A DNA stretch of 64,000 bases from Synergistetes bacterium HGW-Synergistetes-1 (lineage in GTDB: Bacteria; Synergistota; Synergistia; Synergistales; Synergistaceae), in assembly GCA_002839185.1 (NCBI GenBank), contig PGXO01000001.1, positions 248,001 to 312,000 of the forward strand. Reading direction: 5' to 3'. Under the pieces are notes generated by a model. That model was not told the origin of the DNA, did not search any database, and worked only from the letters and a program-made list of their open reading frames with translations. This document shows positions 4,627 through 40,044 of the stretch, one piece after another (the stretch's first letter is position 1; every line of letters begins with the position of its first letter). The position numbers were made by a program, and so were the translations under genes.

Positions 4627-7489
4627 CCCCGTACCCCCTGACATCTTCATTCTCCGGATCGTCTCTGTATCCTTCCCTTTTCCGGCATATAACAAAGAAT
4701 TCACAGAACCTGCACATGGCAGATTCATAGTTTGCAGGAAAGAGACCGGCTTTTAACGACTCAGCCATATCTTCCATAGTCTTTTCTGCAAGGTCAAGAA
4801 ATTCTTCAATTCGCTTTCTCGGCTTTCTGGAGCGGTAGGCACTTCGCATTGTATCAGAGGCAAAATATCCATAAAAAGATGCGTCTTTGTGTCCTATCCA
4901 CCCGTAGCCGAGAGGCCTTTCTCCCGTCGTTTTGCTTATTATTACAGAGTATGCCGCCAGCTGCAGTTCGTTTCGGTGGTCATATGATCTGTTGGACTTG
5001 TAGTCGATCACAACAAAACCATCATTGAAAAAATCCACCCTGTCAGCCCGCCCTTTGAATATGACACCATCTGCCGCGTATTCAGGAAGTTTGTATTCAA
5101 GCTCTGTTCCTGTCCGTTTTTTAAGCTCCTCAGAGCATTCGATACTATCCAGAAGTTCCGCGACAGAGCCCATCTGCTTCATCAGGCTGTCAGCATGCCT
5201 TTCCAGCCTCGGATCAGTCAGCAGCTCGGGATAATGGTCGGATGAAGCTTTTTTCCACTCTTCTTTTGAAAGCAGAGTAAAGCTCCGCGGTGATGAAAGG
5301 TACTCTCTCCAAGAACGCTCCCACACTGTATGAAGAAGGGAACCGGCCCTAAGCGGGTCAAATAGTTCAATGTCGTGGTCCTGAAGCTTTATGTTGATCC
5401 TGCACCAGTATCTGTAAGGGCATTCCTTCCATTCATCGATGTTGCTCAATGAGACAGCAAGAACGTCAGAGGCTGATCCCTCCCCCGTTCTGGGAAAATC
5501 GCCCCTCTCTTTTTTCCCGGCAGAAAGAGGAACTTCAGCTCCGCTGAACCAAAAACAGCCGTCAGGGGGGATTACATCAGAGGGGTTATATTCTATGCTT
5601 CCTACCCTCTCCCATCCGCCCGGTCCCTTTTGAGGAATGAAAAGAGGATCTATAAACTGTGATCCTCCAAGAGGGCGTCCGCTCTGATCAGTAAGGGAAC
5701 GTGTTATGACAGTCCCTTCAAGGGAAGTTGCTATAAGCCTCCTGAAGAGGCCTTCCTTCTGCTCTCTTTCTTCATGCAGCTCGGGGATATGAGAAAGATG
5801 TTCTCCGGCCCCATCATCAGAAGGCTGGTTTTCATTGAACCTGATCTTGCTTTCGTTATCAAGGAGGGGGGATTCCCGGAGCTTCCCCGGCCATGTGCTG
5901 TAGTCTGCGTCCGTCATTATCCAGTACCTGTGAGTCGTAAGCACTGGAGGAAGCCCTGCGTATACCGTCAGGGAACGGCTTTGCGGCAGCCTTATCGGAA
6001 GGGTGGCATTCTTTCCCCACTCATGTATGTAGCTGACAGCTTCCAAGCCCTTCAGCAGCACCTTTGAAGCAGGCCCGATATCCTTGCTCATGTCTTCAAG
6101 TATTTCTATCTTTTGCTCAAGCTCTTTGATCGAGGATGATGTGTCTTTCAAAATTTCGTCCAGGCTTGGAGTGGTATCAATAAAGCTGCCTACTGCACTC
6201 TGGAGATCAAGGCCATTGATAAATTCAAGCCACATCTTCAGTATCTCGGGAGGGGTGCCTCCCGCTGAAAACTGCCTGCACAGCTTTTCAAGATTTTCAA
6301 ATGTAAGCAGGGACCTTCCCCTGAGCAGAGCCTTCCACGCCCTGCTGCCTTCCGGGAAGGCTGAAAGGGCTGAAGAGAGGTCAAACTCGGGGGATCTTAA
6401 CAGGGGGTTCGCAAGCAGGAATGCCGTACTCTCTCTTTCCCAGCCGGAGGCGAAGGCGTTCCATATTGCTTTGGGCAGTTCTCCTAATAGTGTATCTGCA
6501 ACAGTACCCCTTAGCTGAACATTAAATGGAATTTTATACCTCTGAAGAGAATTTTCGATCAGTGAGAGGTGCTGCGTGGTCACCATTATTCCGATATCAC
6601 CGAAATCATTTATAGATCCCAATGCCGAAAAGGCCCCTATGCCATGCGCCCAGAGGGCTGTCTCCCTTGCTGCCGCATCAAACTGCATCTGGCAGTCTCC
6701 CGCTTTCAGCTCAAATATCCTTGAGTGCCATTTAGGCCTCTCCCTATACTCTGCTCCAACCTGAACGATCGAATCATGCAATGAATCCAGACCGGTTTCG
6801 GGCAGTAAAAATATAGTTTTAGTAACTTCTTGAAGTTTTTTAATGAGTTTTGACTGGCTTCCGGTGAAAGTAAGAAAGCCTACCAGTACAAAGGTAAGAT
6901 CTGAAACAGCCTTAACAGATGCTTCTCTGCACAAGCATTCTCTGATCAGCGAAGCCATCTGTGCACTGTCAGCAATGCTATTTTCCTTAAGGTATTCAAG
7001 ATAATCGGAATAAAGCCTCAGAAGTATGTACCCGGGAGATGCTTCCGGCGGGCCGTTTTCCTGAAAAAGTCTTTCCCTGAGGTCGTCCGGTGATATACCC
7101 TCTGTCAGAAGTTCTCTTATGTTATTACCGAGCACCTCTGAAAATCCCCTGTGAAAGACTCCTTCGGGCAGGTCTTTTCTAAGGTCTCCCTCTTCTTCCA
7201 GAAATTTATATAAAATGTAAGAAATGATCAAGTCATGGTCTGGGGGGTCAATTACACGCTTTGGGATGAGCTGTGAGGACTGGTAGACCTCCCGGTAGAG
7301 GTCGCTCCATGTCCATACGACAGGCCTGGCCCCGAAAAATGAACCCCTGCGGGAAATAAGGTGCAGGATGGCGTCTTTGTCCAGCCCTGACGGGACTATA
7401 AAGACAGTCTTGCTTCCGCCGTCCTTATAGAGCCGGGAAAGCCTCTCTTCTTTCTCTGATATGTTGTAATAAGTTTCAACTATGGGCAT
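4616..7489 (-). CDS. addB: AddB-like nuclease subunit
   Basis: 957-aa partner of AddA. The N-terminal helicase-like part lacks a usable Walker A (no GKT/GKS where AddB or AddA would have one), so it is probably a structural, recognition-type domain. The C-terminal PD-(D/E)XK nuclease is intact: GRADRVDF (about 815) and VIDYKSN (about 829). A cysteine near 688 and a C-x2-C-x5-C cluster near 925 match the [4Fe-4S] site known for AddB nucleases. The gene starts inside the end of the metallohydrolase gene (14-base overlap) and overlaps addA by 11 bases, so the three are co-translated. Confidence 0.88.
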   Translation of the reverse strand: MPIVETYYNISEKEERLSRLYKDGGSKTVFIVPSGLDKDAILHLISRRGSFFGARPVVWTWSDLYREVYQSSQLIPKRVIDPPDHDLIISYILYKFLEEEGDLRKDLPEGVFHRGFSEVLGNNIRELLTEGISPDDLRERLFQENGPPEASPGYILLRLYSDYLEYLKENSIADSAQMASLIRECLCREASVKAVSDLTFVLVGFLTFTGSQSKLIKKLQEVTKTIFLLPETGLDSLHDSIVQVGAEYRERPKWHSRIFELKAGDCQMQFDAAARETALWAHGIGAFSALGSINDFGDIGIMVTTQHLSLIENSLQRYKIPFNVQLRGTVADTLLGELPKAIWNAFASGWERESTAFLLANPLLRSPEFDLSSALSAFPEGSRAWKALLRGRSLLTFENLEKLCRQFSAGGTPPEILKMWLEFINGLDLQSAVGSFIDTTPSLDEILKDTSSSIKELEQKIEILEDMSKDIGPASKVLLKGLEAVSYIHEWGKNATLPIRLPQSRSLTVYAGLPPVLTTHRYWIMTDADYSTWPGKLRESPLLDNESKIRFNENQPSDDGAGEHLSHIPELHEEREQKEGLFRRLIATSLEGTVITRSLTDQSGRPLGGSQFIDPLFIPQKGPGGWERVGSIEYNPSDVIPPDGCFWFSGAEVPLSAGKKERGDFPRTGEGSASDVLAVSLSNIDEWKECPYRYWCRINIKLQDHDIELFDPLRAGSLLHTVWERSWREYLSSPRSFTLLSKEEWKKASSDHYPELLTDPRLERHADSLMKQMGSVAELLDSIECSEELKKRTGTELEYKLPEYAADGVIFKGRADRVDFFNDGFVVIDYKSNRSYDHRNELQLAAYSVIISKTTGERPLGYGWIGHKDASFYGYFASDTMRSAYRSRKPRKRIEEFLDLAEKTMEDMAESLKAGLFPANYESAMCRFCEFFVICRKREGYRDDPENEDVRGYGDDS

Positions 7490-14730: not shown

Positions 14731-16697
14731 ACGGTTCCTCCTTCAAGTTTATTTTTTTTCTTTCCGAAACCCTTTTGTTTCGCATATACCGCTCCGACAA
14801 TCACTGCCCCTATTAGATTTGTGAGCATTGTGGGATAAATGATAAGGAAAGGTACCGCAAATAAAAGCAGCCTTTCAATTATGCTGATGTCATCAGCAAA
14901 ATATCCCTGCACTGCAGCTGAGAGCCCTATGACTGCAATGAGTGCGGTCACGCTTGCAAAAACGATCTCAAAAATGCTCCCCTGCAGCAGAAGACCTGGA
15001 TTGTATATGAACATATAGGGCACTATAAATCCTGCAGCTGCCACCAAAAGAGCTGTAAATCCAGTTTTCAGCGGTTCCGATTTGGCTATCCCGGCAGAGG
15101 CGTATGTAGCCAGCGCTACGGGAGGTGTTACGTCAGCAAGCACTCCGAAATACAGACAGAAAAGGTGGGCAGAGAACATCGGAACTCCCATCTGAGAAAG
15201 GGCCGGAGCTGCCAGTGTTGAGGTAATGATATATTGGGCAGTTGTAGGAACTCCCATACCAAGGATTATTGACCCTATCATTGTAAGTATAAGAGCAAAA
15301 GGAAGTATACCTTGAGACATGCTCAGAACAAAGGATGAAAAAGCCAGCCCAACTCCCGTAATAGCAATAATACCAATAACGATGCCTGAACAGGCACATG
15401 CTGCAGCAACGTCAACAGCTCCGGTACCTCCTGCTATCATGGCGTCAATGATCCTCCTGGGCGTCATGCGGTGCTCTTTGTCTCCGAGCCATGATGCAAC
15501 AACGAGCGAAACAATGGACCAGAAGACCGCCATCGTCGGCGAATATCCGAAAGCAAGGAATACTACAAGTAAAACTATCGGAAGCAGAAGATGCCATCCC
15601 TGGCGTAAGACTTTTTTGACGTTAGGAAGCTGTTCTTCTGTAAGCCTCGGCATACGTTTTTTACCTGCCCTGAAATGGACCATTGCTCCGATGGAAATAA
15701 AATAGAGAGTTGCAGGAATGGCGGCACCAACGACTATTTCCCAATAGGATACTCCCAGAAACTGAGCCATTATGAAGGCAGCGGCTCCCATTACCGGCGG
15801 CATGACCTGTCCTCCTGTAGAAGCAGCAGCGACTATCGCTCCTGCAAATTCAGGAGAGTAACCTGACTGTTTCATAAGGGGGATCGTAAATGCTCCTGTA
15901 GTAACGGCATTGCCGCATGAGCTTCCAGAGACCATGCCCATGAATCCGCTGGCTGTTACCGCCGCTTTTCCTGGTCCTCCCTGACTCTTTCCTGCAAGTC
16001 CTACCGCAAGGTCGATAAAGAACTGACCTGCTCCGGACGTACTGAGAAAAGATCCAAAAAGGACAAAAAGGAAGATAAACGAGGCCGAGACGCCAAGCGG
16101 TACACCAAAGATACCGTCGGTGCGGAGATACATGAAGGGAGCCAGTTCTTCAAAAGAAAAACCTGCGTGACCAAGGATTCCCGGCATATAAGGACCAAAC
16201 ACGCCATAACACAGAGCAAGGATAGCCATTATCGGAAGCGGCCAGCCCATAGCTCTGCGTGCTCCTTCTATTACCAGTACTATCATTATTACGCCGAGGT
16301 AGATGTCAGAGGGGATCGCTGATCCTTCGCGTGCCGCGATTGCATCGTAATTCAGCAAAATGTTTGCACAGCCAATGATCATGAGTACCGCAGGTATCCA
16401 GTCCCAGATGTCTATCTTCATTTTGTTGCATTTTTTCTGTGATACTGGATAAATAAGAAATAGCAACGTTCCCATGAACATCCAGTGCCACGCTCTCTGT
16501 GTCATTGCTGCAAAAAGCCCGAAAGCCGCTGTATAAAGATGGAAACAGGAAGCTGTTATTGCTATCCCGGCAACAAGGTAAAACTGCCAGCCGGATAATC
16601 TCCGTTTTTTACTTTCATCAGGATCTTCAACTATCTCAGGGATAATATCAATCGTTTTCATGTTTTCTGCTGTATGCAGATCAAATTCATCAGCCAT
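14727..16697 (-). CDS. TRAP transporter fused permease (4TM/12TM fusion)
   Basis: 656-aa membrane protein in which the small DctQ-like and large DctM-like TRAP domains are fused, the form that accompanies TAXI-type binding proteins. About 16-18 hydrophobic helices are visible; GFMGMVSGSSCGNAVTTGAF and GMGVPTTAQY are typical permease motifs. The start at 16697 (MADEFDLH) follows a perfect AGGAGG; an in-frame upstream extension has no such site. It sits downstream of the TAXI binding protein across a hairpin and overlaps the CoA-transferase A start. Confidence 0.93.
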   Translation of the reverse strand: MADEFDLHTAENMKTIDIIPEIVEDPDESKKRRLSGWQFYLVAGIAITASCFHLYTAAFGLFAAMTQRAWHWMFMGTLLFLIYPVSQKKCNKMKIDIWDWIPAVLMIIGCANILLNYDAIAAREGSAIPSDIYLGVIMIVLVIEGARRAMGWPLPIMAILALCYGVFGPYMPGILGHAGFSFEELAPFMYLRTDGIFGVPLGVSASFIFLFVLFGSFLSTSGAGQFFIDLAVGLAGKSQGGPGKAAVTASGFMGMVSGSSCGNAVTTGAFTIPLMKQSGYSPEFAGAIVAAASTGGQVMPPVMGAAAFIMAQFLGVSYWEIVVGAAIPATLYFISIGAMVHFRAGKKRMPRLTEEQLPNVKKVLRQGWHLLLPIVLLVVFLAFGYSPTMAVFWSIVSLVVASWLGDKEHRMTPRRIIDAMIAGGTGAVDVAAACACSGIVIGIIAITGVGLAFSSFVLSMSQGILPFALILTMIGSIILGMGVPTTAQYIITSTLAAPALSQMGVPMFSAHLFCLYFGVLADVTPPVALATYASAGIAKSEPLKTGFTALLVAAAGFIVPYMFIYNPGLLLQGSIFEIVFASVTALIAVIGLSAAVQGYFADDISIIERLLLFAVPFLIIYPTMLTNLIGAVIVGAVYAKQKGFGKKKNKLEGGTV

Positions 16698-16731
16698 CAA
16701 ACAAACCTCCTGTGATCTAACGCTTCTAAAG

Positions 16732-16759
16732 TCAACGGGGAGCAGATGCCCCCCGTTGA
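16732..16759 (-). promoter_or_regulatory. Intercistronic hairpin between TAXI binding protein and TRAP permease
   Basis: Perfect 9-bp stem TCAACGGGG / CCCCGTTGA with a 10-base loop, no T-run after it on the minus strand. Position directly after a binding-protein gene suggests an RNA stabiliser or partial terminator that sets more binding protein than permease. Confidence 0.55.
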
Positions 16760-16783
16760 GATCCAACTATAAGCCGGGGTATC

Positions 16784-17737
16784 CTACTTAACTGTTATTC
16801 CCTGCTCCTTGAAGTACTTGATCGCTCCCGGGTGGAAAGGAATGATACCTACGGATGCCTTCTGAGGAACAAAGTTGACCGCATGCGGAGTTACTTTCAT
16901 AAGTTCATCTTTTTTGTCAATGAAAGTCTTCAGACAGTCGTATGCAACTTTTTCTGTCATTTTTCCGTTAACTACGAGGAAGTTGGCGTCAGCCACAGTC
17001 TTACAGGGCTGATCCTGTTTTGTGTAGGTTCCCTTTTCGATGGTGTATTTCAGGAGGAACTGGTGCTTCTTGGTAACCTTATCGATAACGTCATCGGGAA
17101 GAGATATCATGACTACGTCACGAACAGCCGCGATCTCCATGATCGCTGATCCGGGAGCTGCAAAATTGAAGAAAGCTGCGTCGATATTCCCGTCCTTAAG
17201 GGCTGTTACTGCTTCGGGCTGAGTAAGCTGCTGCTTGTTGATATCCTTTTCAGGGTCCCAGCCTGCGGCCTCAAGGATCATCAGGGAAAGAAGCTGGTCT
17301 CCGCCGCCAGGGGCGCCGAGCGATATTTTCTTGCCCTTAAGGTCAGCGAATGTCTTAATGCCTGTTTTTGTTGTCGTTACAAGGTGCTGGGGAGCTGCAT
17401 ACATGTTCATTAGGGTGAGGAGCGGGAGTTTTCCGTCCTGCTGGAAAGCCTCAGTTCCCGTGTAGGCCTGATAGAGAGTAGAACCCATGGTCATACCTAT
17501 CTGGGCCTTATTTGATGCTACAAGACGGCAATTCTCTTTGGATGCCGCTGTAGAGCGCGATGTTGCCTTGATGTCCATGCCGCCCTTGGTCAGCAGTTCA
17601 GCCATGACTCCGCCCAACGGGTAGTATGTTCCTCCGACTCCGCCTGATCCGATCGTGATGAAGGTCATTGCAGACGCGATCCCTGCAAAAAGCATAACTG
17701 TGATAATTCCGAGTGCGATAATATTCCTCTTCTTCAT
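16784..17737 (-). CDS. TAXI-family TRAP transporter substrate-binding protein
   Basis: 317-aa secreted protein. A signal peptide (MKKRNIIALGIITVMLFAG, cleavage after ASA) is followed by FITIGSGGVGGTYYPLGG, the hallmark N-terminus of TAXI proteins. It captures an organic acid or amino acid in the periplasm and delivers it to the fused permease. TAXI proteins are known mainly for glutamate/2-oxoglutarate-like ligands, but the family is broad. Strong AGGAGG site before the ATG. Second gene of the operon led by the aminotransferase. Confidence 0.93.
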   Translation of the reverse strand: MKKRNIIALGIITVMLFAGIASAMTFITIGSGGVGGTYYPLGGVMAELLTKGGMDIKATSRSTAASKENCRLVASNKAQIGMTMGSTLYQAYTGTEAFQQDGKLPLLTLMNMYAAPQHLVTTTKTGIKTFADLKGKKISLGAPGGGDQLLSLMILEAAGWDPEKDINKQQLTQPEAVTALKDGNIDAAFFNFAAPGSAIMEIAAVRDVVMISLPDDVIDKVTKKHQFLLKYTIEKGTYTKQDQPCKTVADANFLVVNGKMTEKVAYDCLKTFIDKKDELMKVTPHAVNFVPQKASVGIIPFHPGAIKYFKEQGITVK

Positions 17738-26551: not shown

Positions 26552-26595
26552 CAATCGATTTACCATTGATTACCAATTGATTTGCAATAAATTCC
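26552..26595. repeat. Tandem degenerate 11-bp repeat, four units
   Basis: CAATCGATTTA, CCATTGATTAC, CAATTGATTTG and CAATAAATTCC follow each other with an exact 11-base step. The rest of the 26185-26725 gap holds array A, element copy 1 and a hairpin near 26493-26514 (GGTGTT/AACACC); no gene seen. Confidence 0.6.
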
Positions 26596-29109: not shown

Positions 29110-31392
29110 CTATTCACCGCCGGATGGGGCTTCCGGCAAATTCTCCTTGGGTTGAAAAGCCATAGCATGTTCGGGGGCGAGAGGTCTGCTGAAGAAGTAG
29201 CCCTGGATGGTATCACAATCAGCACCCACAAGATAATCCCTCTGGGCCTCGACCTCCACCCCTTCAGCTATAACTTTGAGTCCAAGTTTATGTGCCATTG
29301 ATATGATGTCGGGTATTATGAGTTCTTCTCTTTTATCGACAAGGATTTTGTCGATAAACTGTTTGTCGATCTTGACTATATCGACATTAAGATCGCGAAG
29401 TCTGGAAAGGGATGAGTATCCTGTCCCGAAATCGTCCACAGAAATATTTATCCCCATGCTCTTAAGCATACCCAGTTTTTCGTTCGCCATTATAAAGTCA
29501 TCCATGAAAAGAGATTCTGTAATCTCGAACTCAAGGTCGCTTTTTTCGATGCCACAGACCTCTATCAGGACTTTCATGTCCTCGACAAAATCTGATCGCA
29601 TCAGGTCTGCTCCAGAGATGTTGACAGCAACACGAACTCCACGGCAGGATCTCTCCTTCATCATCTTTACAAATAATGAGGTTTTTTTCACGATCAGCTT
29701 TGTCAAAGGTGTTATCAGTCTTTTTCTCTCCGCTACTTCTATAAATTCAACCGGGGATACGTTTCCCAGCGTATCTGACTTCATTCTTGCAAGCGTTTCA
29801 AAACCCGTTACTTTTCCTGTGCCCGCTTCGACCTGCGGCTGGAAGAGAACATAGATACTCCCCTCTTTGCCATCATTTTCATCGTTAATTGCACGGATGA
29901 TCTCTTTTTCGATAAGGCTTTCTCTTTCGATAACTGCTTCCATCTCCGCGTTGAAATACTGGTAACTTACGCTTCCGTCTTCTTTCGCCCGGCTGATCGC
30001 AATAAGGGCTTTTTTGAGTATCCGTGACGGATCTTCCTCTTCTTCAGAAATTTTGGCTATGCCAATTTCTACCGGCATATAAATGTTCTGATCAGAAAAG
30101 GTATTTTTTTTAAAAAGATCCTTAACCCTCTCAAGTGAACGGTCCAAAGAATCATTAGTAATGAGATCTTCAGAGTATATGACCAGGCGGTCGCTTGCTA
30201 TCCTGAATGTTATCCCGTCATCGTCAAAATTCTCTTTAACCTTTTCTGCTATTTCTGTGAAAACTTTGTCAGCGTATTCATAGCCGTAGAGAAGGGCCAT
30301 ATTTGCAAGATGGCTGAAGTTGAGCATAAAAATTGCTCCTCTCCACTTTTTCTGTCTCAAAAGATTATCGAGGAAATACTTGAGTGATTCCTGGTTGGGA
30401 AGCCCGGTGTTGGTGTCATAGTAAGCAAGCCTGAGATAATTCCGACCGTTTCTGTATATCATCAGCATTATCCCGCCGGTAGCAATAAAGACGGTTACCA
30501 ACAGCCAAATACTATTTTTCAGTTCTTCTGCCGCAAAATAAGCTGCTTCTTTTTGCTGTGAGCTTACAAAAAGAGCGCCAACAACTGCGCCTTTATCAAT
30601 AAGGGGAATAAAAGAGTTGTACAGTACTTCCTTCCCAGATCTGTCAACATAGCTTATCTCTTTTCCTTCGCTGATAGAAAGAGCCGCCTCGGGAATGTCA
30701 ATTTTTGTGCCTTTCGATTCATGTTTTGAGCTCTCCACAATTATTTGATCCCTGTTGATCAAACTAACCTGGTCGATGTTTGGATCTTCGTTGAGTTCAT
30801 CCAGCAATTTGCTTATTTCAAATCTGCCTAAGAATTTTTTGACATCTCCCGCGGAGATACCTATCTGGACGAATTCTCCTGACGGAAGTCTGTAATATGC
30901 ATATTTGTAGTATTCTCCTGAAACCGTGTCTGCCCTTATCTCATCCATTGCTTCCTTTTTACCGCTCTTTATGAAATTATGTACAGGATGTCCTTCCTCG
31001 GCTTTCCAGCCAACATATCTGTCAATATTAGAGTACGTGATCACTCCATCTCTGTTATGGACAGATATTTGATCAACGTTCAGGGATGCTGCAAGAGCTT
31101 TTACCCCAGCCTGTGAAAACCGCCCATGATACAACATTACAGTTTTACTTGCTGCTATGAGTTTTTCTTCAAGAAGTTCATTTATGATCCTGCTTGCTGC
31201 CACTGATTTTTTCAGGCTGTAGGAATAATTTCGCGCAGCATCAATGGCATCCTCTTTGAAGCGATCATAGTTTTCATTTATCTTGCGTTCTACGGAAGAA
31301 TACATCCCGATCGAAAAAAGAACAGAAATTACTAAAAATGGAATTATAAAAAACCATATGTTGATCTGTTTCAGAAGTTTTTTATCATTCAT
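29110..31392 (-). CDS. Membrane sensor with degenerate GGDEF and intact EAL domain (c-di-GMP phosphodiesterase)
   Basis: 760 aa. TM helix near the N-terminus, a periplasmic Cache-like sensor (about 35-300), a second TM helix, then a GGDEF domain whose active loop reads ASDRL and cannot be catalytic, then an EAL domain with ETL in GFETLARM, DDFGTGYSSLSRL, KIDKQFI, VIAEGVE and QGYFFSRP. It should hydrolyse c-di-GMP, with the dead GGDEF possibly sensing GTP. Start is one of several ATG codons (31401, 31395, 31392); GGGAG lies six bases before 31395 and nine before 31392. Convergent with the B12 sensor/cyclase pair. Confidence 0.9.
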   Translation of the reverse strand: MNDKKLLKQINIWFFIIPFLVISVLFSIGMYSSVERKINENYDRFKEDAIDAARNYSYSLKKSVAASRIINELLEEKLIAASKTVMLYHGRFSQAGVKALAASLNVDQISVHNRDGVITYSNIDRYVGWKAEEGHPVHNFIKSGKKEAMDEIRADTVSGEYYKYAYYRLPSGEFVQIGISAGDVKKFLGRFEISKLLDELNEDPNIDQVSLINRDQIIVESSKHESKGTKIDIPEAALSISEGKEISYVDRSGKEVLYNSFIPLIDKGAVVGALFVSSQQKEAAYFAAEELKNSIWLLVTVFIATGGIMLMIYRNGRNYLRLAYYDTNTGLPNQESLKYFLDNLLRQKKWRGAIFMLNFSHLANMALLYGYEYADKVFTEIAEKVKENFDDDGITFRIASDRLVIYSEDLITNDSLDRSLERVKDLFKKNTFSDQNIYMPVEIGIAKISEEEEDPSRILKKALIAISRAKEDGSVSYQYFNAEMEAVIERESLIEKEIIRAINDENDGKEGSIYVLFQPQVEAGTGKVTGFETLARMKSDTLGNVSPVEFIEVAERKRLITPLTKLIVKKTSLFVKMMKERSCRGVRVAVNISGADLMRSDFVEDMKVLIEVCGIEKSDLEFEITESLFMDDFIMANEKLGMLKSMGINISVDDFGTGYSSLSRLRDLNVDIVKIDKQFIDKILVDKREELIIPDIISMAHKLGLKVIAEGVEVEAQRDYLVGADCDTIQGYFFSRPLAPEHAMAFQPKENLPEAPSGGE

Positions 31393-31421
31393 CATCAGCA
31401 TCTCCCATTTCGATAGTTAGG

Positions 31422-31454
31422 GGCGGTCAAGCGATCGTTTAACAATTGTCAAAT
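31422..31454. repeat. 11-bp-period repeat, left flank of element copy 3
   Basis: Read on the minus strand: CGATCATTTGA, CAATTGTTAAA, CGATCGCTTGA, then CCGCC. The outer part is an inverted copy of the sequence at 31630-31656, so element copy 3 sits between inverted flanks. Confidence 0.55.
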
Positions 31455-31475
31455 GATCGTGAGACCCAAAATCAC

Positions 31476-31593
31476 CGTCGTCCCCGAGTGCTTAAATCGG
31501 GGATCCAGTGACTTTAAATTAAGTCTGTTACTAGTTTTTAAGGATCCTAAACCAAAGCTGCTGGATTCCCAATTAAGGCATTCGGGAACGACG
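31476..31593. repeat. ~118-bp palindromic element, copy 3 (best preserved ends)
   Basis: Left end CGTCGTCCCCGAGTGC and right end GCATTCGGGAACGACG are inverted repeats with two mismatches over 16 bases. Inside: hairpin TCCCCGA/TCGGGGA, then GATCCAGTG...CTGGATTC. Confidence 0.7.
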
Positions 31594-31622
31594 GAATGGG
31601 GTCGATCCTCAGGTCCTCACAG

Positions 31623-31740
31623 CTGTTTGACAACGTTTGACGATCATTTGACCGCCCTGCAACTGCTTAGCAACCGCTCAGCAATTGCTTAGCAATGTCT
31701 TGAAAACAACCGTTTCACCATTGCTTCACTATTGTTTCAC
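31623..31740. repeat. Ten tandem degenerate 11-bp units in three blocks
   Basis: Block 1 (31623-31655): CTGTTTGACAA, CGTTTGACGAT, CATTTGACCGC. Block 2 (31660-31703): CAACTGCTTAG, CAACCGCTCAG, CAATTGCTTAG, CAATGTCTTGA. Block 3 (31707-31739): CAACCGTTTCA, CCATTGCTTCA, CTATTGTTTCA. A GCCGG/CCGGC hairpin follows. The step is exactly 11 bases in each block. The rest of 31402-31879 has no gene. Confidence 0.7.
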
Positions 31741-31802
31741 GCCGGCAATCTTCCGGCAGTCTCACAATTGTTCTATAAATACATTTTACTTCATAAAATA
31801 AT

Positions 31803-31879: not shown

Positions 31880-32755
31880 TCACCGTTTTGTCGGGATGAG
31901 AAGAACAGAAGAAAGGGCCTTTCTGGCAACATTTCCGCTTACGCTTCCAAGGAAAAATTCCTTGACGTATCCCCTGCCCTGGCTGCCCATAACAACAAGC
32001 TGTATGACCTGTTCTTCAACTGTTTTTATTATCTCTACAGCAGGGGAACCATATTTAACAAGGACATCGACTTCAATTTCTCCTCTTTCCTGAAGAAGTT
32101 TCTTCATCCCTTCAAGCCTTGCCGAATCTATCCTGTTGAATTCTTCAACTTTTTCATCAAGGTGCGGGCTTAGCTTCGCAGAATCCTGGACATGGAGGAG
32201 CGTGACTTTTTTAACCCTTCCTGGAGCCATTTCAAGTACCTTTGTAAAAGCTATGTCGGCATTGTTTGAAAAGTCCGTAGGGTATAGCAGATGTTTTGCG
32301 ACTTCACACCCATCAATACTAATTCCCTCAACGTCGTTCCTCCTCGGCCTCATTATAAGCAGCGGCTTCGATACAGCGTGCATAAGGTCATTAGCCAGAG
32401 TACTGAAATAGAGTTCACCGGAGGAGGTCCGCCTCCGTGCTCCCACCACTATCAGAGAATAATCTTCTGCAACTGCTATCTTGTTGATCTCCGTTGCGGG
32501 ATACCCTGCAAGCACCCTTGTTTCTACTTCAAAGCCCTCTTCGATAAGGTTTTGTTGGTTTTCTTTGAAGACCTCTTCGTATTTATGAAGAGGAAGGTTT
32601 GATTGTCCCCTTGTGTAGTCGATGACTTCGTCTACGGTCCTGTATTGGATCAGAAGACATTTTTGCGCATCGTAGGCTTTCAGCCTCCCTACACACCCCA
32701 TGAGCTCAAGCGAGTCGTCAGACAGGTCAGTAGCTACAATGAACTTTTTAAACAC
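31880..32755 (-). CDS. Universal stress protein with two Usp domains (1 of 3)
   Basis: 291 aa, two UspA domains in tandem. The C-terminal domain keeps the ATP-binding signature G-x2-G-x9-G-S (MGSQGRGYVKEFFLGSVS, about 252-269); the equivalent loop in the N-terminal domain (VGARRRTSSGELYFSTLA) is degenerate. GTG start with AGGGAG seven bases upstream. Closely related to the next gene upstream, and clearly a recent duplicate. Tandem Usp proteins bind ATP and are linked to survival under starvation or oxidative stress; the specific role is unknown. Confidence 0.9.
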   Translation of the reverse strand: MFKKFIVATDLSDDSLELMGCVGRLKAYDAQKCLLIQYRTVDEVIDYTRGQSNLPLHKYEEVFKENQQNLIEEGFEVETRVLAGYPATEINKIAVAEDYSLIVVGARRRTSSGELYFSTLANDLMHAVSKPLLIMRPRRNDVEGISIDGCEVAKHLLYPTDFSNNADIAFTKVLEMAPGRVKKVTLLHVQDSAKLSPHLDEKVEEFNRIDSARLEGMKKLLQERGEIEVDVLVKYGSPAVEIIKTVEEQVIQLVVMGSQGRGYVKEFFLGSVSGNVARKALSSVLLIPTKR

Positions 32756-32792
32756 AGCATTCTCCCTCCCTTTGTTAAATCAGCTGACCGGG

Positions 32793-33680
32793 TCAACGTC
32801 TGGTCGGTATCAGAAGCACTGAAGAAGGGCTGAGCCTGGCTATGTTCTGGCTTACGCTGCCAAGGAAAAACTCCTTCACGTAACCCCTGCCCTGGCTGCC
32901 CATCACAACAAGCTTAACATCCAGATCTTCGACAAGTCTAAGTATTTCAAGTGACGGTGATCCATATTTCACAACAGTTCCCACTTCGGCCTTGCCTTCC
33001 CGCTCAAGCATATCTTTCATACCTTTCAGCCTTGCCTCATCCAGCCTGTTGAACTCTTCGATCTTGCTCTCCAGATGAGGGCTGAGCCTCGATTTATCCT
33101 GTACGTGAAGGAGTGTGATCTTTTCTACGCTTCCGGCTGCCATCTCCTTTATATACCTGAACGCCATGTCAGCGTTATCGGAGAAATCTGTTGGATAGAG
33201 GATATGGCTGCTGATATCAAGCAAATTTCTTTCTGAGTCATCTTCCTCAGTAACTCCTGCAGGGTCTTCCGTCCTTATCTGCAGAACAGGGAACTGCGCC
33301 GAATGTGTCAGATCGTTTGCGATCCTTCCAAAAAATATCTCACTTGACGAGGAATATCTCCTTGACGCTATTACAGTCAGAGAGTAACCCTCTTCCTCAC
33401 ATATTCTGTTTATCTGCGCCGGAGAAAATCCGGGAAGGATCCTGGTCTCGACTTCAAATCCCTCTTTTTCAATCTCTCTCTTTTGTCTTGAAAGCGTCTT
33501 TTCATACTCGTAAAGAAGTTCGTTGGAGTATATACCGGAAAAATCGATTATTTCGTTCAGATCTCTGAACTGGACTAAAAGGCATTTCTTTGCTCCAAAA
33601 GGTTTCAGTCCGCCAATACATGACATGGAGATTGAAAAGTCTTTCGAGATATCTGTTGCAACAATAAATTTTTCAAACAT
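32793..33680 (-). CDS. Universal stress protein with two Usp domains (2 of 3)
   Basis: 295 aa. Same build as its neighbour: degenerate N-terminal ATP loop (IASRRYSSSSEIFFGRIA), intact C-terminal one (MGSQGRGYVKEFFLGSVS). The stretch HILYPTDFSDNADMAF is nearly identical in all three paralogues. AGGAGG before the ATG. 37 bases separate it from copy 1, so the two are probably one transcript. Confidence 0.9.
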   Translation of the reverse strand: MFEKFIVATDISKDFSISMSCIGGLKPFGAKKCLLVQFRDLNEIIDFSGIYSNELLYEYEKTLSRQKREIEKEGFEVETRILPGFSPAQINRICEEEGYSLTVIASRRYSSSSEIFFGRIANDLTHSAQFPVLQIRTEDPAGVTEEDDSERNLLDISSHILYPTDFSDNADMAFRYIKEMAAGSVEKITLLHVQDKSRLSPHLESKIEEFNRLDEARLKGMKDMLEREGKAEVGTVVKYGSPSLEILRLVEDLDVKLVVMGSQGRGYVKEFFLGSVSQNIARLSPSSVLLIPTRR

Positions 33681-39567: not shown

Positions 39568-40005
39568 TTGAAAATTTTAGTCAGTGCGTGTCTGCTGGGT
39601 ATAAATTCCAGATATTGCGGAGGAGGCTGCCTCAATGAAAAAATTGCCGCACTGATCGGAAACCACAACCTCATACCTGTATGCCCCGAACAGCTTGGCG
39701 GGCTGCCCACACCGAGAGAGCCGGATGAGATAAGGGAAGGAAGAGTCTTTGAGAAAAGCGGAAAAGAGAACACTGACAACTTCCAAAAAGGGGCTGAGGA
39801 AACGTTGAGACTTGCCCGGCTTCTTAAAGTTGACATGGCAATACTCAAGCAGAACAGCCCCTCGTGCGGATCTTCCATGATCTACGACGGAACTTTCAGC
39901 AGTAAAAAGATCCCCGGCTCAGGCATAACTGCATCTTTGCTTATCGAAAACGGCATCAGGGTGATCAGCGAGGAAGACATTACCGAGTTAAGAGAATTGT
40001 CTTAA
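39568..40005 (+). CDS. DUF523 family protein
   Basis: 145 aa, the usual length of a stand-alone DUF523 domain. Conserved family marks: VSACLLGINSRYCGG (about 5-19), VCPEQLGGLPTPREP (about 37-51) and LKQNSPSCGS (about 92-101), three cysteine sites that suggest metal or Fe-S binding; function unknown in general. TTG start with GGAG eight bases upstream. The stop codon lies in the first unit of an 11-bp tandem repeat. Confidence 0.88.
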   Translation: MKILVSACLLGINSRYCGGGCLNEKIAALIGNHNLIPVCPEQLGGLPTPREPDEIREGRVFEKSGKENTDNFQKGAEETLRLARLLKVDMAILKQNSPSCGSSMIYDGTFSSKKIPGSGITASLLIENGIRVISEEDITELRELS

Positions 40006-40044
40006 CAATCGTGAAGCGGCAGTGAAGCACTTGTGAAACGGTTG
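40001..40044. repeat. Tandem degenerate 11-bp repeat, four units, overlapping a stop codon
   Basis: CTTAACAATCG, TGAAGCGGCAG, TGAAGCACTTG, TGAAACGGTTG: exact 11-base step. On the other strand it reads CAACCGTTTCA..., the same first unit as block 3 at 31707. The first unit supplies the TAA stop of the DUF523 gene. Confidence 0.65.

Follow-up and report, generated by a model that had tools for sequence, protein, structure and literature searches.

Organization of the repeat region

The window analysed here is a stretch of 64,000 nucleotides from the genome of Synergistetes bacterium HGW-Synergistetes-1. The repeat region lies in the spacer between two genes on the minus strand, a universal stress protein (Usp) gene (31880-32755), which contains two Usp stretches and turns its 3' end toward the repeat, and a GGDEF-EAL protein gene (29110-31401), which turns its promoter side toward it; both were identified using Pfam. 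The Usp gene belongs to a pair of adjoining genes (31880-33680) with two universal stress protein stretches apiece, again according to Pfam.

The left arm of the repeat (31421-31466, plus strand) is a TCAA-type block of 11-mers, GGGCGGTCAAGCGATCGTTTAACAATTGTCAAATGATCGTGAGACC, in the orientation of strand B, which we define as the strand reading GTGAAGC... It is an inverted repeat of the right arm (31612-31657, minus strand) and folds onto it. The right arm is likewise a TCAA-type block, with TTTGAC (plus strand) at 31626, 31636 and 31647, in steps of 10 and 11 bp, and stretches 85-92% identical to it occur at several places in genome G001. Between the two arms lie two CGTC-tagged palindromes, and the hairpin measures about 237-245 bases from arm to arm. 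The first palindrome (31475-31508), CCGTCGTCCCCGA...TCGGGGATCCAG, has the tag and the CCA tail described in PMC3733652, and the second (31560-31594) is inverted relative to it, the two inverted copies agreeing at 28 of 34 aligned positions. Beyond the right arm, and also on the minus strand, follow a GCTRAGC-type block (31658-31698), with CTYAGC (plus strand) at 31666, 31677 and 31688, and a GTGAARC-type block (31709-31740), with YTTCAC (plus strand) at 31713, 31724 and 31735, both in steps of 11 bp. A fourth tag of the latter block, TCTCAC, is found at 31760, 25 bp past the third, because one unit has a hairpin module, GCCGGCAATCTTCCGGC (31741-31759, minus strand), instead of its variable bases. 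The last tag and core of the block, TCTCACAATTGTTC, extend from 31760 to 31773 on the minus strand.

The copy in the window was predicted to fold as a single hairpin with its arms paired (z = -6.8 as DNA, compared to dinucleotide shuffles). Its arms are unequal, the left one consisting of one block and the right one of three, and this imbalance means that it is not a clean terminal-inverted-repeat element. Further family members in the window are a GGTAATC-type block (26552-26595, minus strand) and a GTGAARC-type block (40001-40044, plus strand), the latter with a similarity match at G000:C1:288010. The initial annotation had reported the same period at these two places and at 31422-31454, and all three are real members of the family, the last one being the arm that pairs, in inverted orientation, with the first (TTTGAC) block.

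An 11-bp period carried by a dispersed repeat family

Over 110-bp stretches, the lag-11 score in the window peaked at 65, in the region of 31623-31740, and the best score never exceeded 55 in 200 dinucleotide-preserving shuffles at lags 5-30. The lag-11 identity over 31600-31780 was 0.51, compared to 0.15-0.38 at the other tested lags (2-60). The lag-11 signal is therefore real and not due to chance. The exact 11-bp step that had been claimed for this region holds within each block, with one step of 10 bp, but not across the whole 118 bp.

The period was followed in a 304-kb sample composed of the window and 12 evenly chosen 20-kb stretches. The lag-11 autocorrelation of intergenic DNA, which the initial annotation had suggested as a check, showed no raised mean identity (0.2723, the median over lags 4-40 being 0.2695). 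Discrete segments do stand out: at least 28 of 44 positions agreed at lag 11 in 6 of the 125 intergenic segments of 60 bp or more, and in at most one segment at any other lag. Similarly, chains of three CRRYNG cores were found 17 times at step 11, and no more than once at any of the other steps between 7 and 19. The 11-bp period thus belongs to a discrete, dispersed repeat family and does not characterise intergenic DNA as a whole. The initial annotation overlooked that these arrays belong, as modules, to a dispersed palindromic family that also has hairpins and CGTC-tagged palindromes.

Grammar of the 11-bp unit

Cores were aligned on the 7-base tag only, with no core assumed, which yielded the unit consensus GNNRARC-DRTN, where GNNRARC is the tag and DRTN the core. 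Among the 313 inter-tag tetranucleotides, position 1 was A in 174, G in 95, T in 33 and C in 11; position 2 was a purine in 312 (A 187, G 125, C 1); position 3 was T in 310 (C 2, G 1); and position 4 could be any base. There are at least five tag classes (GTGAARC, GCTRAGC, GGCAAGC, GTCAAAC, GGGAATC and their close kin), and the class is mostly constant within a block, adjacent spacers being identical in 44 of 81 cases when 10.2 are expected. Adjacent cores, in contrast, differ from each other beyond what position-stratified shuffling gives (Hamming sum 479 versus 420.5, sd 12.3), with none of 2000 shuffles reaching as high a value. Core position 2 shows this dissimilarity most strongly, G beside G being under-represented there.

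Short tandem arrays commonly arise by replication slippage, and the blocks might simply be an 11-bp word repeated in tandem and drifting neutrally, as the five identical consecutive units at one Bacteroidetes locus (L087) would suggest. Slippage, however, predicts that cores and tags are equally alike, whereas here the tags are homogeneous and the similarity of adjacent cores is below chance; it also leaves the dispersal, the polarity and the hairpin modules unexplained, and we consider it very improbable.

The tag-to-tag steps, counted on distinct sequences, were 11 bp in 109 cases, 10 bp in 11 and 12 bp in 2. This distribution agrees with the phasing on one helical turn put forward in the initial annotation, with the caveat that base loss is the commoner mutation anyway. 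Nearly all of the 10-bp steps lack one free base and retain RTN. The curved-DNA element suggested at the same time was not borne out, as AATT is present in only 22 of 296 cores and A and G are freely exchanged in the core positions, which speaks against phased A-tract curvature.

Dispersal, polarity and gene context in Synergistaceae

A search with the 154-bp array gave 25 matching places in its own genome at E <= 0.001. A two-unit consensus gave 40 matches in the 304-kb sample, against 2 for the reversed pattern, and 36 of the 40 were intergenic, at 14 places, although IGRs make up 10.7% of the sample. By simple scaling, about 100 places may be occupied by the family genome-wide. Several copies are located at contig ends (G000:C7:100693 of 101182, C12:51267 of 51929 and C10:275), so the repeats probably interrupt the assembly and their count is too low.

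The dispersed modules have a marked polarity. Among 82 pairs of neighbouring blocks at most 400 bp apart in the Synergistaceae loci, 33 were arranged as B...A, 1 as A...B and 48 in the same direction; the evenly chosen stretches alone gave 4, 0 and 10, respectively. The modules thus point inwards from both sides, and every copy is therefore a large imperfect palindrome.

The blocks also show a site preference. Of 114 blocks, 39 were between convergent and 7 between divergent genes, compared to 15 and 22 of 95 background spacers (Fisher p = 5.5e-5, an optimistic value because blocks sharing one spacer are not independent). The 114 blocks are those remaining of 163 distinct blocks after 30 in predicted ORFs of at least 80 aa, many of which ORFs may be spurious, and 19 without a flanking gene had been set aside. 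For 67 of the 114, the nearest gene end was a 3' end, strand B being directed away from the gene. A phased operator, the third possibility raised in the initial annotation, is therefore unlikely, as the blocks avoid divergent, promoter-sharing gene pairs and favour convergent pairs, and are mostly found at gene 3' ends.

Hairpin modules

In 73 loci, 58 distinct inserts of 13-20 bases replace the 4-base core between GTGAARC tags. These inserts form 33 different stems, and yet 290 of their 305 base pairs are Watson-Crick pairs, which indicates that the two sides of the stems change in step and that the hairpin is maintained. The mismatches comprise 8 G-T and 5 A-C; as the two are about equally frequent, the hairpin modules give no indication that an RNA strand is under selection.

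The family could be made of RNA elements, i.e. transcribed hairpins acting as terminators or 3' stabilisers, with 11 bp corresponding to one turn of the A-form. The location near gene 3' ends and the strong predicted folding would be in line with this, but the near-equality of the two mismatch types just mentioned is not, nor is that found in long Bacteroidota palindromes, where 31 G-U and 32 A-C were counted on the gene strand of 11 codirectional hairpins. This wobble count was made on hairpins scoring at least 20, with convergent, divergent, one-gene-missing and lower-scoring hairpins excluded. Hairpins between adjacent units, formed by neighbouring CRRTNG cores with G-U wobble allowed, were also considered and rejected, as the cores do not covary as paired bases between position 2 of one unit and position 5 of the next (mutual information 0.013, versus 0.010 when shuffled). 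Moreover, 10-bp steps are tolerated and 12-bp steps are not, and no Rfam family matched in the window. RNA elements are thus an improbable explanation.

A second type of module is present in the same spacers. It consists of GGRGAATTTGC followed by variable short hairpins (with AGCC..GGCT or GGAC..GTCC stems, for instance) in several repeats, and was seen in L006 near 1610-1760, in L129 at 16600-16870 and in L093. At two places, L017 near 1400-1540 and L129 at 5560-5640, a conserved centre, TTTTTMAAGACRTCYGAAYTATKGTTTYATCTTAAA, lies between the B arm and the A arm, and is possibly the core of one type of element.

Turnover between species

The uspA-EAL gene order of the window is kept in genomes G005 and G006, in which the EAL protein is 63% and 69% identical, respectively, but the 11-mer array is absent from both. 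The spacers are too divergent for a base-exact empty site to be defined, and the orthologous spacer of G006 contains a different short hairpin module. TA precedes most starts of TCAA blocks; as TA also ends the preceding block, the boundary is ambiguous.

Closer relatives also show presence/absence differences. When G003 was compared with G002 and G007, from which it diverges by about 13%, 30 indels of 15 bp or more were listed. Some of these border N runs or lie in genes, and whole family modules account for at least four (47, 57, 86 and 92 bp). G002 and G007 are 99.8% identical over the compared stretches (L123-L130) and their large differences are N runs, so that this pair is uninformative for turnover. 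Some orthologous arrays are identical between species differing by 13%, and others are rearranged. The identical arrays could reflect selection for a host function, but this is blurred by recombination tracts: tracts of about 2% divergence are found near them, and as these point to recombination, we make no claim of selection on the orthologous arrays. One such tract of about 2% divergence, in L234 (4743-6170) compared to L245, lies within surroundings that are 12% divergent and suggests a recent recombination between species.

These observations bear on whether the arrays are sites kept by the host, along which a nucleoid, domain-boundary or termination protein would coat one face of the DNA over several turns. 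The steps of 10 and 11 bp, with hardly any of 12, and the purine-only and T-only core positions would suit such a protein, as would the unlikeness of adjacent cores, which looks as if perfect repeats were avoided, and the arrays unchanged at 13% genome divergence, were their conservation not blurred by the recombination tracts. On the other hand, the five or more tag classes mean that there is no single motif, the presence of the array in the same spacer varies between species, and no candidate protein is at hand. A host-function site is therefore possible but unlikely.

Distribution among genomes

The pattern GTGAARCRRTNGTGAARC was found in all 8 genomes of the genus, in 2 of 28 other genomes of the family and in 0 of 24 other genomes of the order, with no match of the reversed control. 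A wider three-unit pattern matched 12 of 185 Synergistota genomes (8/8 in the genus, 4/44 in the rest of the family and 0/133 outside the family), and its control matched 1 of the 185. Related genomes thus carry the lag-11 signal, the lack of which the initial annotation had named as evidence against its own reading. Among named records, 16 of 22 stretches are from Synergistaceae MAGs and the other six are in bins of other taxa. One of these, L084, from a Methanomethylovorans bin, has Synergistaceae-style linkers and, judged by these, is probably mis-binned.

A related pattern matched 11 times, at five contig places, in the Bacteroidetes genome G063 (control, 0). In 395 Bacteroidota genomes, the matches were 7 in G063, 10 in G307 and 1 in G564, and those of the control 8 in 6 genomes. 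The tag pattern gave 39 + 39 matches in G307 (control, 0) and 5 + 5 in G063 (control, 3 + 1), where the counts on the two strands overlap because the pattern is partly self-complementary. Two of the 395 Bacteroidota genomes thus carry dispersed arrays of the same grammar. The array carriers comprise G000-G007, G011, G015, G016, G029, G063 and G307. In the Bacteroidota loci, core position 2 was a purine in 94 of 94 cases, a feature partly built into the search pattern, and the arrays are compact B-A palindromes between genes. Pseudomonadota were chosen as the phylum of L085, a record titled Alphaproteobacteria; 8 of 398 genomes had 9 matches, and as the control matched equally often (7 genomes, 9 matches), no Pseudomonadota genome stands out. 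In L083, from a Bacteroidia bin, CGTGAAACAAT units lie around 5960-6020, just upstream of a gene that by eye resembles a tyrosine recombinase, and may possibly be the binding array of this candidate recombinase.

Viral contigs carry 11-bp GTTGAACGGTC arrays, many of them inside initiator-like genes, which we take to be replication initiators, the arrays then probably being origin iterons. In the viral contigs L195, L199, L202, L203, L205-L209, L218 and L220, these arrays translate as STTVEQPLNDR-like peptides. The family could accordingly descend from replication iterons or from a parC-like partition centromere, bound by an initiator or a ribbon-helix-helix protein and scattered from plasmids or phages. 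Besides the viral arrays, the binding sites of partition proteins would fit, as ParR of R1 needs two 11-bp repeats and ParR of pB171 binds 10-bp repeats (PMC9426499). The viral link is weak, however, because the reversed control gives 16 viral stretches against 29 for the grammar, and a similarity search of plasmid and phage records returned no similar sequence. Although the GTGAAAC tag, as we see it, resembles half of parS, ParB half-sites were rejected, as there was a single parS-like site, with 2 mismatches, the same as in the control. None of six neighbouring proteins scanned with Pfam was a Par or Rep protein either, and this origin seems barely credible.

Proposed nature of the element

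We propose that the copy in the window is a dispersed, non-autonomous, mosaic palindromic intergenic repeat that works like REP/BIME elements or MITEs, to which we assign a probability of about 0.65. Its modules are interchangeable and form short head-to-tail runs with a step of 11 bp, 10 being tolerated, and some have a hairpin in place of the core. A trans-acting enzyme recognising the palindromic ends, or recombination between modules, would spread the copies toward places where an insertion does little harm. A DNA-binding protein, either the mobilising enzyme or a host protein, would read the units along a single face of the DNA, and such reading would maintain the spacing of one turn as well as the positions restricted to purine or to T.

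Spread driven by a RAYT was considered and rejected for this genome. The Y1/RAYT family (PF01797) had 0 matches in the genome of the window (G000, 99.93% complete), and among the 8 genomes of the genus it was found in 2 (G002 and, as a broken copy, G007), when arrays are present in 8 of 8. The family may thus serve as a test case of a non-autonomous repeat spreading without a RAYT. The one-turn word, combined into modules by simple rules that recur in two Bacteroidota genomes, also makes a compact bait in the search for a protein reading or moving the units. It is conceivable, if rather doubtful, that unrelated bacteria use the GNNRARC-DRTN grammar through a conserved family of tag-switching proteins forming a phased filament, which would constitute a dispersed nucleoid or mobilisation system across Synergistota and scattered Bacteroidota. 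A word of caution also follows for annotation, as tandem 11-mers in spacers can belong to mobile repeats and need not be operators.

Comparison with known systems

In the literature surveyed, mainly titles and beginnings of abstracts of open-access articles, no description of the 11-mer family was found. Tandem 11-bp direct repeats are known from ParR/parC of R1, and 10-bp repeats from pB171 (PMC9426499), and in this respect resemble the arrays described here. The parC of a plasmid, however, is one site beside the par genes, whereas the present family has about 100 dispersed palindromic places, as scaled, and several tag classes.

The CGTC-tagged repeats (PMC3733652) are close to the centre of the window copy, an inverted palindrome pair whose outer ends bear CGTC and whose inner tails contain CCA. 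This comparison concerns only the 31475-31594 part of the copy, which has both the terminal CGTC and the CCA-like tail. For the repeats of that article, too, no dedicated transposase is reported. The loops of its families are 4-5 nt, with some other lengths, whereas the loop here is about 9 nt (CCCCGA-GTGCTTAAA-TCGGGG); in the part of the article accessible to us, 11-mer arms around the palindromes are not among the features described, and the term 'Synergist' is absent from the article.

As in MITEs, terminal inverted repeats are present (31421-31466 and 31612-31657). The enterobacterial MITE-like RU repeats (PMC2759123, PMC2229807) are likewise small, non-autonomous and intergenic with inverted ends, but the arms vary in module content in the present family.

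The family finally resembles REP sequences, BIMEs and REPINs, the last being described with RAYT transposases (PMC2817692 and PMC3116915), in that it is short, dispersed, extragenic, palindrome-forming, mosaic, opposed in orientation and non-autonomous. Like BIMEs, it combines several short motifs as a mosaic at dispersed extragenic places, and has opposed palindromes, as seen in the 33 BA and 1 AB pairs, the hairpin modules and the fold of the whole element. In contrast to REPIN/RAYT systems, in which the transposase is in the genome, the own genome of this family is devoid of a RAYT, and instead of a head tetranucleotide we found 7-base tags of at least five classes, mostly without a palindrome. 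A REP is a single palindrome of 20-40 bp with a GTAG-type head, whereas here an 11-bp word is repeated head to tail. The usual description of a small intergenic repeat is that of one palindrome; the present one is built from a DNA word of one helical turn with fixed and free positions. It is thus a known kind of repeat, of which the 11-bp word grammar is the unusual and new part.
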